Assembly (NCBI RefSeq): GCF_900100605.1
Contig: NZ_FNCN01000018.1
Span: forward strand, 1-64,000
Reading direction: 5' to 3'
DNA length: 64,000 nucleotides
Origin: Sinosporangium album
GTDB taxonomy: Bacteria > Actinomycetota > Actinomycetes > Streptosporangiales > Streptosporangiaceae
Part shown: one piece after another, positions 10,947 to 34,041 of the stretch
Position numbering within the stretch: position 1 is the first letter of the stretch
Layout of the letters: every line of letters begins with the position of its first letter
Notes under the pieces: model-generated
Told to the model about the DNA's origin: nothing
Databases searched by the model: none
What the model saw: the letters and a program-made list of their open reading frames with translations, nothing else
Position numbers and translations under genes: made by a program

Positions 10947-12185
10947 ATGTTGAACACCACCACCGCCCAGGAGTTGCGGGAGGCGATGGTCGACCGGATC
11001 GCCGCGAACCGGCAGGCCCTCGGCCTGAGGCTGCCGGAAGAGGTGGCGCATGCGCTGCGGACCGTACCCCGGCATCTGTTCACCGGTGACGTCCCGCTGG
11101 AGGAAACCTACGGAGACGGCGCGATCGTCACCGTGCGCGGCGAGGACGGACTGAACCTCAGCTCGGTGTCGGCGGCGTGGCTGCAGGCCGCGATGCTCTG
11201 CCAGGCCGCCCTGAGGCCCGGCGAGCACATCCTGGAAATCGGCAGCGGCGGCTACAACGCGGCCCTCATCGCTGAGCTGGTCGGGCCGCGCGGCTCGGTG
11301 ACCACCGTCGACATCGACCCTGCCGTCACCCAGCGCGCCCGCACCTGCCTGGACAAGGCCGGATACACCGATGTCGAGGTCGTCTGCGCCGACGCCGAAT
11401 TCGAGCTCGAACCGGGCCGCACCTTCGACGCCATCATCGTGACGGTCGGCGTACCCGACATATCACCGGCGTGGTGGTCCCAGCTCGCCGCCGGTGGACG
11501 CCTGATCGTCCCGCTCCGCACCCTGGGCCTGACCCGCTCCTGGCTGCTTGGGCGCGATGGCGGAACGCTGGTCTCCGGCGACCACTTCCCCTGCGGGTTC
11601 GTGCCCCTGCGGGGCGCGGGCGCCCGGCAGGGCCTGAGCATCCCGCTACGTGATGACCCGTCGGTGAGCCTGTGGCTGGGCGAGGACGCCTCCGCCGGCC
11701 AAGCCGACAAGGTGCGGGATCTGACGGGAGTCCTGGATCTGCCACGCGCCAGCGCGCGGTCGGGTGTCACCTTCAGCTCGGGAGAGTCCGCCTCCGGCCA
11801 GGACATGTGGCTGGCCACGACCGTGCCCGGGTTCTGCCAGGTCATCGCCGACCAAGAGGCGATCGACACCGACATCGTGCGCCTGACCTGGAGGTGGGGA
11901 AGCCCCGCCCGCGTCGACGCGGCGACACTGGCCTACAGGGGCACGCCGCGGCTCGCAGCCGACGGCCGGCACGAGTTCGTGACCTACGCCCACGGACCCG
12001 ACGCCGAGGCCGCCGCCGCATTCCTCGCCGAACAGATCGGCGCCTGGGACCGCGCGGGCCGACCCAAGCCCCGCCTGCGCGTCTACCCGGCCGCGACCCC
12101 CGACGGCGAGCTGGCGGAGGGGTTCCGGCTGGACAAATGGCGCAGCCGCCTCGTCATCGACTTCCCGGCGGACATCGCCGGGTAA
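10947..12185 (+). CDS. PIMT-like methyltransferase, FxLD-system type
   Basis: The 412-residue protein begins at an ATG behind GGGAGAGGG. The N-terminal half is a protein-isoaspartate-type methyltransferase: PRHLFTGDVPLEETYGDGAI, SAM-binding HILEIGSGGYNAALIAELVG at residues 94-113, VTTVDIDPAVTQRARTCL, and the hallmark RTFDAIIVTVGVPDISPAWW. The C-terminal 200 residues (ending KWRSRLVIDFPADIAG) form the extra domain of RiPP-associated versions, where it binds the precursor. Family members occur with FxLD lanthipeptides and methylate an Asp of the peptide. No dehydratase, cyclase or full precursor is present; the next gene is broken after 14 codons. It may be an orphan of a lost cluster. Confidence 0.75.
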   Translation: MLNTTTAQELREAMVDRIAANRQALGLRLPEEVAHALRTVPRHLFTGDVPLEETYGDGAIVTVRGEDGLNLSSVSAAWLQAAMLCQAALRPGEHILEIGSGGYNAALIAELVGPRGSVTTVDIDPAVTQRARTCLDKAGYTDVEVVCADAEFELEPGRTFDAIIVTVGVPDISPAWWSQLAAGGRLIVPLRTLGLTRSWLLGRDGGTLVSGDHFPCGFVPLRGAGARQGLSIPLRDDPSVSLWLGEDASAGQADKVRDLTGVLDLPRASARSGVTFSSGESASGQDMWLATTVPGFCQVIADQEAIDTDIVRLTWRWGSPARVDAATLAYRGTPRLAADGRHEFVTYAHGPDAEAAAAFLAEQIGAWDRAGRPKPRLRVYPAATPDGELAEGFRLDKWRSRLVIDFPADIAG

Positions 12186-32300: not shown

Positions 32301-32537
32301 CTACTTTGTCTTCGCGTCTTTCTTGGCAGCGGTGACTGCTGCGGGCTTGGTTTTAGCTCGCCCGTACCCGTCGACGAAGCCGGCGCCGTTGTTGTCCTTG
32401 ATATGCACTCTGGTGCATTTGACGTGCGCGGAGTAGGTCTTGGCGATCAACATGCTCGCATCTGCCTGCGCGAGGGGGCTTGCCACAGTGGCCGTGATGG
32501 CGGCGGCCAAGGCTGAGAAGACTAGGCGGCTAAGCAC
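32301..32537 (-). CDS. Small secreted basic protein
   Basis: A GTG at 32537 preceded by AAAGGAGAAGCG opens a 78-residue protein with a signal peptide (LSRLVFSALAAAITATVASP, LAQADA). The mature part is short and basic (TYSAHVKCTRVHIKDNNGAG, YGRAKTKPAAVTAAKKDAKT) with one Cys. The pattern H-V-K-C-T-R-V resembles small secreted actinobacterial proteins of unknown role. It is read in the same direction as the peptide-methyltransferase locus and lies 106 bases downstream of it; a connection is possible but unproven. Confidence 0.6.
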   Translation of the reverse strand: MLSRLVFSALAAAITATVASPLAQADASMLIAKTYSAHVKCTRVHIKDNNGAGFVDGYGRAKTKPAAVTAAKKDAKTK

Positions 32538-32643: not shown

Positions 32644-33771
32644 TCAGCCGATCACATGATCCGGGCTGTCCAGCCAGATCGACTGGCCTTCGGGCACGAT
32701 GGTCACGCCGAACCGGCGTCGTTCCGGTTCACCCCATGTCACCCATGCGAAGTAGGCGTTGACCACCTCATCCCAGACTGGCCGTGGACCGACCTGGTAG
32801 ACCTCGTAATCGTCGGCACCGGGCTCATAGGTGACCAGCGCCCACTGGCCGGGGTCGGCAGGGTCGACCAGCCACAGCAGCACCCGACCGTCGTCCTCGG
32901 TGCGCGTGCTGGTCCGCAGCCCCGTCGACGCTGCCATGGCCAGGGCCGCGCCGGGAGGTGCTCCGGCGATGGTCCTTGGGTCGACACGCGTCCGCCCGGT
33001 GCTGTCCTCGCCATGCTGCGCGTCGAAACCGCCTCGCTGACTGCGCATCACCATGTAGTCCGCGAAGCGGCGGAACCGGCCGACCGCCGTACCATCCGGC
33101 CGCACGACCGCGCGCAATGCATGGCCGGCACCGAACCCGGTATGCCACGGCGCGACGATCACCCCGCCCGGGCGGGTCTGCTCCACCCACGCGTACGGCA
33201 CCTCGGTCACCGCACATGTCGCATGGACCCGGTCGTACGGCGCGCCTTCAGGAACGACAAGGGCTCCGTCGCCGACGATCAATCTCGGCGAGATCCCCGC
33301 CTCGCCCAGGTGCTTGGCCGCCTGCTCCGCCACGGCCTGGTCGACCTCGATGCTGGTGACGAGTGCCGCGTCGCCCACCAGATGGGCCAGCAGGGCCGCG
33401 GTCCACCCGGTGCCCGTTCCGATCTCCAACACGCGGTGACGCGGCCCGACATCGAGCAGCTCCAGCAGATCCACGACGGTGGACGGCGCAGAACTTGAGG
33501 ACGAGTAGTCGCCGGCCTTGGCCTGGAGCGGGGTGCGGCCGTCGTCGAGCTGCGTGACCAGCGGCATTCGTGAATAGACGGCATCCCACCAGGCGTTGGG
33601 ATCGGTGTCCCGGTCCACGAGCTGTAGGGCACCGTCGGGACCCGCCAGCACCACGGGCGGGACGAACATGTGGCGGGGCACCGCCCGCAGCGCCTCCTCG
33701 ACGGGCGCCTCGATTTCACCCACAGCCTCGATCAGCCGGTCGATGCGAGCTGTGCTGTCCAAGGCTGTCAT
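32644..33771 (-). CDS. PIMT-like peptide O-methyltransferase (RiPP-associated type)
   Basis: The 375-residue protein has the protein-isoaspartate methyltransferase fold. It shows VEEALRAVPRHMFVPPVVLA, SSSAPSTVVDLLELLDVGPR, SAM motif HRVLEIGTGTGWTAALLAHL at residues 112-131, VTSIEVDQAVAEQAAKHLGE and VHATCAVTEVPYAWVEQTRP. Unlike repair PIMTs (about 220 residues) it has a C-terminal extension ending VTIVPEGQSIWLDSPDHVIG. Such a C-terminal motif marks PIMT homologues that work in RiPP pathways (graspetides, lasso peptides, lanthipeptides, imiditides). The gene overlaps a 37-codon peptide gene by ATGA, so that peptide is its probable substrate. No ATP-grasp, cyclase or protease lies nearby, which argues for a stand-alone aspartimide-forming enzyme. 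Confidence 0.85.
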   Translation of the reverse strand: MTALDSTARIDRLIEAVGEIEAPVEEALRAVPRHMFVPPVVLAGPDGALQLVDRDTDPNAWWDAVYSRMPLVTQLDDGRTPLQAKAGDYSSSSSAPSTVVDLLELLDVGPRHRVLEIGTGTGWTAALLAHLVGDAALVTSIEVDQAVAEQAAKHLGEAGISPRLIVGDGALVVPEGAPYDRVHATCAVTEVPYAWVEQTRPGGVIVAPWHTGFGAGHALRAVVRPDGTAVGRFRRFADYMVMRSQRGGFDAQHGEDSTGRTRVDPRTIAGAPPGAALAMAASTGLRTSTRTEDDGRVLLWLVDPADPGQWALVTYEPGADDYEVYQVGPRPVWDEVVNAYFAWVTWGEPERRRFGVTIVPEGQSIWLDSPDHVIG

Positions 33772-33881
33772 TTGTCCTTCGGCTCTTCGTGCCTGCCGGG
33801 CGGCGGTCCGGTGTCGCGGCTGGGGGGTGGCGGGTCGGGAAGCGGTTGCGGCTTCTTGGGCTGACCTTCATGTTTGCCCAT
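33768..33881 (-). CDS. Candidate precursor peptide of a PIMT-modified RiPP (imiditide-like)
   Basis: A 37-codon gene starts at the ATG at 33881 behind GAGGGAGCCCC. Its stop overlaps the methyltransferase start (ATGA, 33768-33771). The peptide starts MGKHEGQPKKPQPLPD, is rich in Pro, Lys, Arg, Glu and Asp, and has no cysteine. The Asp in the SRDTG segment (residues 21-25) is followed by Thr-Gly and is the best aspartimide candidate; Asp16 and Asp36 are alternatives. Highly charged linear precursors next to a lone PIMT homologue are the published pattern of imiditides (founding case from Nonomuraea). Assignment rests on context and composition, not on a sequence match. Confidence 0.6.
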   Translation of the reverse strand: MGKHEGQPKKPQPLPDPPPPSRDTGPPPGRHEEPKDK

Positions 33882-34041
33882 GGGGCTCCCTCGCTCGATG
33901 TGGCCGATAGGGCTGCGACGGTACGACCGCGCCGAAGATGAAGCAAGAAGCACGAGAGGAGGTTTGGCCTTACCCCGGCGTGTGGCGGGCCATAGTGCGA
34001 TTTGAGCCCGCCTATCGAGGTGATTCGGGTTCGCGCATACC

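Follow-up and report, generated by a model that had tools for sequence, protein, structure and literature searches.

A peptide gene and an overlapping PIMT-type methyltransferase gene of Sinosporangium album as a probable type I pamtide (imiditide) operon

The gene pair and its surroundings

We analysed the first 64,000 nucleotides of contig NZ_FNCN01000018.1 of Sinosporangium album (assembly GCF_900100605.1), a stretch that we refer to as the window, and in it a small peptide gene followed by the gene of a PIMT-type methyltransferase. The two genes lie on the minus strand, a point missing from the first-pass annotation of this DNA. That annotation had described a peptide gene of 37 codons with a ribosome site of its own and an ATGA overlap with a 375-residue methyltransferase, and both statements are borne out, by the translation and by a GAGGGAG found by eye in front of the peptide. 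In reading direction the features of the pair are:

33886..33892, minus strand: GAGGGAG, likely ribosome binding site of the peptide gene (by eye), with four bases between it and the ATG
33768..33881, minus strand: precursor peptide gene, 37 codons and TGA (translation, profile of its relatives, alignment with 52 others)
33870..33878, minus strand: GKH motif, peptide residues 2-4 (alignment and the GxH counts below)
33813..33815, minus strand: codon of Asp23, where methylation and aspartimide formation are predicted (conserved Asp column, below)
33789..33797, minus strand: GRH motif, peptide residues 29-31 (alignment and the GxH counts below)
33776..33780, minus strand: GAAGG, likely ribosome binding site of the methyltransferase, inside the peptide gene, with four bases between it and the enzyme ATG (both by eye)
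32644..33771, minus strand: PIMT-type methyltransferase (PAMT), 375 aa and stop, overlapping the peptide gene at ATGA
33403..33423, minus strand: motif IGTGTGW, enzyme residues 117-123 (position and conserved columns), which we take to be the SAM-binding motif
32887..32898, minus strand: acidic loop EDDG, enzyme residues 292-295, in the region where a related enzyme (L019) has DEDGD
32725..32745, minus strand: WxxxGxP motif (WVTWGEP), enzyme residues 343-349 (conserved columns)

The translation of the peptide gene, from 33881 to 33768 on the minus strand, is MGKHEGQPKKPQPLPDPPPPSRDTGPPPGRHEEPKDK (37 aa). It had been called cysteine-free, charged and proline-rich and is so, with no Cys, 12 Pro among the 37 residues, 13 charged residues (K5 R2 D3 E3) and four Gly. 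The Asp-Thr-Gly that had been singled out is found at residues 23-25 as stated, but the peptide has three Asp in all (16, 23 and 36). A GTG at 33953 is an alternative in-frame start upstream that gives a longer frame; in the alignment with the relatives, however, the conserved part starts at MGKH and not at this GTG. A promoter scan gave no promoter-like site, and one terminator-like site that is within chance expectation. Downstream of the enzyme, at 32301-32537 on the minus strand, there is a 78-codon ORF with a signal-peptide-like start by eye and no Pfam match.

Among the 13 neighbouring ORFs compared with Pfam (about 23.9 to 41.5 kb), no ATP-grasp, lanthionine, radical SAM, YcaO or protease family was found. 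Those with a match were a RecD2-type helicase, an L,D-transpeptidase, an AraC-type regulator with a DJ-1/PfpI domain, a beta-lactamase-family protein, a sulfotransferase, an integrase-core (rve) protein and a piece of an ABC transporter ATPase. The earlier statement that no other RiPP enzyme is present thus holds for the 13 ORFs scanned but not for the window, where a second RiPP-type PIMT homologue lies 21 kb away at 10947-12185 on the plus strand (TIGR04364, FxLD system, 412 bits for a cut-off of 320). No lanthionine enzyme was found among eight other ORFs scanned in the first 16 kb, and no FxLD peptide was seen by eye in the three frames just upstream of this gene.

The surroundings of 22 loci (the window, the related locus L001 and 20 further ones) were compared by clustering the neighbours within up to about 8 kb on each side. 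Beyond the enzyme, no family of at least 60 aa was common to more than seven of the 22 loci, and therefore the conserved unit is the pair. The families common to seven loci or fewer look by eye like common ones, and no transporter or protease stood out among these shared neighbours.

Conservation of the peptide beside the enzyme

A profile of the relatives' peptides, built without the window, was compared with all 1176 stop-to-stop frames of at least 20 residues in the window and matched the frame of the peptide with an E of 2.8e-6, the next best frame having an E of 1.3. As a reference, 1000 shuffles of the peptide's residues reached 17.0 bits at best, against 27.5 bits for the real sequence. 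An alignment of 16 precursors (A1), which contains the window peptide itself, was searched against the whole genome and found the locus of the pair with an E of 6.2e-10 and one other match with an E of 0.7. Since no second precursor was found by this search, the pair is, by precursor profile, the only type I pair of its genome.

The first-pass annotation had proposed that its reading would fall if the small ORF were not conserved beside homologous methyltransferases, and this comparison was carried out. In an enzyme search over 250 genomes of the same family, 112 had a match at 1e-60 or better (the own genome included). We took 71 loci: the window, L001 and 69 further ones (L012-L080), 29 of which were given by the search and 40 taken down the ranked list, so that they are high-scoring matches and not a random sample. 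Passed over in picking them were G028:C4:409865, G066:C37:238830 (which falls within L054) and two partial matches, G120:C25:101761 and G068:C280:3127. Two others, G155:C13:41338 and G138:C1:4392111, were skipped for no particular reason. The search for related loci confirmed two loci. With each locus in turn excluded from the profile, a related peptide was found at the start of the enzyme in 52 of the 71 loci at E 0.05 and in 47 at E 0.001 (window included), compared to 0/71 in the control regions downstream and 0/71 on the reverse strand, so the proposed reading withstood this test.

At E 0.05 there were 19 loci without a precursor. Five of them (L025, L043, L045, L072 and L073) have a visible small peptide that is divergent or degenerate, and two (L054 and L061) are second enzymes in tandem. 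The remaining 12 were bare at the sensitivity of the test, so that a recognisable precursor is not found beside every enzyme of the family. In the only other genome of the window's genus that was searched (G001), the single match at 1e-60 has no such peptide and adjoins a SPASM-domain gene.

Some loci showed arrangements of their own. In L054 and L061 two PAMT genes are found in tandem after one visible precursor. Upstream of 1480 in L030 the precursor is split between two frames, and upstream of 1477 in L027 there is a precursor of 22 residues without the core; in both the peptide has apparently decayed and the frame of the enzyme is still open.

The conserved Asp and the GxH motifs around it

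We aligned 53 precursors, that of the window included. They are the peptides that passed a filter on composition and ribosome site, plus that of L077, which has a TTG start and was found by eye and added. Excluded were the peptides of L025 (no Asp), L027 (22 aa, core missing), L030 (two frames) and L002 (distant), those of L036, L065 and L075 as near copies of those of L035, L060 and L070, and two small frames (L009/L086 and L054) that are not precursor-like. Upstream starts were trimmed in several rows before alignment. The consensus of the 53 starts with G-K-H. Further on there is a conserved P, mostly with F, L, V or I behind it, and after this come the core Asp and a G-[K or other]-[H or R] stretch.

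The core column is Asp in 51 of the 53 precursors, and Asp23 of the window falls in it. This is therefore support for the choice of Asp23, the candidate site already proposed, over Asp16 and Asp36. The other two precursors (L001 and L062) have Asn in this column; in L001 another Asp-Gly is nearby and the alignment may be off. The residue after the core Asp is most often Gly (23/53), and Thr, as in the window, in 8/53. The precursor of L062 (1855-1989, plus strand) has Asn-Gly at the core in place of Asp-Gly. Since Asn-Gly can close to an aspartimide unaided, the L062 peptide may do without methylation.

A second feature of the alignment is a GxH on both sides of the Asp, found in 24 of the 53 precursors, the window among them (GKH and GRH). 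When the residues were shuffled 200 times within each half, the count averaged 0.26 and never exceeded 2. In the other 29 precursors, i.e., more than half, GxH is not on both sides. A direct repeat between the two stretches that flank the Asp reached p 0.05 in only seven of the 53 (60 shuffles each), and the window gave a p of 0.42 with PPPSR/PPPGR as its best match, so it is as GxH that the paired motif is supported. We did not find a GxH pair flanking the target Asp in the text of PMC13001092 and PMC10787088; as this comparison covered text and not sequence logos, we do not claim the pair of motifs as unpublished.

The 53 aligned precursors point to a modified Asp and a paired motif flanking it. 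One tentative and rather unlikely reading of the pair is that the linear precursor carries two copies of a recognition handle, GxH, and that the enzyme may hold both at once, bending the peptide like a hairpin. By the same reading, and just as doubtfully, this loop would take the place of the ring or the zinc ion of other PAMTs. Such a clamp, if true, would explain how one Asp is selected in a linear peptide, and the GxH makes the question of how a PAMT picks one Asp of such a peptide testable.

Class of the enzyme and predicted modification of Asp23

The enzyme had been described as a PIMT-type methyltransferase of 375 residues with a C-terminal extension, and this is supported by a Pfam PCMT match (2.7e-29) and by structure comparison, although the confidence of the model is low at the C-terminus. 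The best solved structure found by Foldseek was 1DL5, the Thermotoga maritima PIMT with that C-terminal extension (381 columns, TM 0.56 by query, rmsd 8.2); by sequence only, the match to 1DL5 covers enzyme residues 87-233. The model was built on an alignment of four sequences and has a mean pLDDT of 58, with the C-terminal part under 50 over much of its length, and with low confidence it suggests that the C-terminal domain of the class is present. The WxxxGxP motif was found in 67 of the 71 enzymes, window included; according to the text of a 2026 review (PMC13001092) it is given for lasso, graspetide and imiditide PIMTs. At least two acidic residues are found in the loop stretch of 66 of the 71 enzymes and likewise in L085 and L086, so the acidic loop is no distinguishing mark of the class.

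An 80-row tree places the window enzyme in a group of 35 with a support of 100/99. Its nearest rows are L012, L013 and L041, whose precursors resemble that of the window in the alignment, the fork that joins them having only 90/30. Eleven rows of the tree were labelled by eye as being without precursor, and L031 is also without one and unlabelled; within the group of 35, those without precursor are L046, L051, L052 and this L031.

The pair combines the features by which type I pamtides can be recognised in sequence: a two-gene unit without another primary RiPP enzyme (13 neighbours scanned with Pfam), a PIMT homologue of more than 300 aa with a C-terminal domain (modelled with low confidence), WxxxGxP near the C-terminus (WVTWGEP, 343-349), a linear precursor without a tetracysteine motif and rich in Gly, Pro, Asp and Lys, and a highly conserved precursor Asp near Pro or Gly. 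The text of PMC10787088 describes type I precursors as being of about 45 aa, rich in Gly, Pro and Asp and with conserved charged ends.

Among known systems, NmaA/NmaM of Nonomuraea maritima shares with the window the two-gene unit, a linear precursor without Cys motif and one modified Asp (predicted here), and NmaM is likewise a PIMT homologue with the C-terminal domain and an acidic loop. The window differs in having Thr and not His after the Asp, EDDG instead of DEDGD in the loop, and a Pro-rich precursor of 37 residues with a net charge of +1. NmaA was compared by its description. The marks of NmaA/NmaM given in the text of PMC13001092 are Asp-His at the site and DEDGD in NmaM. Both are found in only one of the loci examined, L019, whose enzyme is 58% identical to that of the window and has DEDGD at 299-303, and whose precursor has Asp-His in the column of Asp23. 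Separately, DEDGD is also found in L052 (for which no precursor was found) and Asp-His in L053 (no DEDGD). With both marks present, we take L019 to be NmaA/NmaM itself or closely related to it, and this kinship anchors the class and the site by homology. SpaA/SpaM of Streptomyces sparsogenes, compared by its description in the text of PMC10787088, shares with the window two genes and no cyclase. Type II pamtides (cysimiditides) share with the window a lone PAMT and a small precursor, but need two CxxCxGxG motifs; the window peptide is without Cys, so there is no zinc hairpin, and the pair falls outside this class.

The pair is very probably a two-gene type I pamtide (imiditide) operon in which Asp23 would be methylated and then converted to aspartimide, by the mechanism that best explains the features above. 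The sequence shows the two genes and their overlap, the conservation of the pair and of Asp23, and the family and motifs of the enzyme; the coupling, reaction, site and binding mode we infer. Translation would first yield the Cys-free precursor of 37 residues, and coupling at the ATGA would then lead the ribosome on to the methyltransferase gene. The enzyme, which is acidic, would recognise the linear peptide in its unmodified form by charged residues and by the conserved peptide ends, and would methylate the Asp23 side chain with SAM as the methyl donor (+14). The amide of Thr24 would attack the ester, and by spontaneous closure with loss of methanol the aspartimide would be formed (-18 Da), which would hydrolyse to isoaspartate and aspartate (0). 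This course of methylation, aspartimide and hydrolysis, with the same mass steps, is taken from the text of PMC10787088 and PMC13001092. The net charges, -20 for the enzyme (family median -18) and +1 for the peptide (family median +2, range -5 to +6), fit charge recognition only loosely, and a simple charge rule is not general because the peptide is only +1 and the family spans this range. According to the text of PMC13001092, methyl ester built up and aspartimide was reduced in an NmaA variant with Thr after the Asp, and Thr directed hydrolysis towards Asp in lihuanodin, a lasso peptide; these effects are predictions for the window peptide.

The effect of Thr in NmaA, which raised the methylated form at the expense of aspartimide, bears on another outcome, that the end product is the Asp methyl ester and not the aspartimide; related to it is the reading that the peptide is a bound regulator or partner of the enzyme and not its substrate, with which the lack of a prominent transporter or protease among the shared neighbours is in line. 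We consider both improbable, as the conserved core position of the precursors is an Asp (51/53) and the text of PMC10787088 and PMC13001092 describes modification of SpaA and NmaA, which belong to the same type.

The best NCBIfam match of the enzyme is TIGR04188, the methyltransferase of ATP-grasp maturase systems, which spans residues 16-364, and graspetide-associated PAMTs are homologous enzymes. This raises the alternative of a graspetide tailoring methyltransferase that lost its ATP-grasp gene, with the small ORF being incidental. In the own genome, where the enzyme search found 19 places at E 0.001 (own included), two homologues are indeed directly behind matches of an ATP-grasp maturase model: that on C48, where the maturase gene is above the TIGR04187 cut-off, and that on C9, where the match is below the cut-off and the open frame scanned lacks the first part of the model. 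Others have different neighbours, a radical SAM/SPASM gene in front of the homologue on C62, a zinc alcohol dehydrogenase gene in front of that on C11 and a frame without family match before that on C45. The score of the window enzyme is 292 bits for a TIGR04188 cut-off of 380; however, L084 (342) and L085 (331) are below it too, so the cut-off alone does not decide. With no ATP-grasp among the 13 neighbours scanned, a small peptide conserved in 52 of the 71 loci and a linear substrate to be expected, this alternative is very improbable and the graspetide-associated class was rejected. A repair PIMT acting on isoaspartate in aged proteins, to which the PIMT catalytic domain would correspond, is more improbable still and was also rejected, with 88 bits for a cut-off of 159.05 in the repair model (TIGR00080 pimt), the long C-terminal extension with WxxxGxP, and a conserved peptide gene that overlaps the start of the enzyme.

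As a type I pamtide operon, the pair looks like one more case of a class that was described recently, and not like a new class. The first-pass annotation had presented it as a possibly new imiditide-like cluster; by its sequence features the type I pair stands, but 1414 type I pamtides are already reported in the text of PMC13001092, so that "new" has to be toned down. The pair adds a clean, testable member to the class.

Two further observations concern relatives of the enzyme. In the own genome, a stretch on C37 (G000:C37:1442-1708, minus strand, L083) matches enzyme residues 286-374 with 71% identity, the rest being absent, and is perhaps a decayed second imiditide locus. Enzyme homologues of less than 60% identity were found on 88 plasmid records, 71 of which are named Streptomyces.
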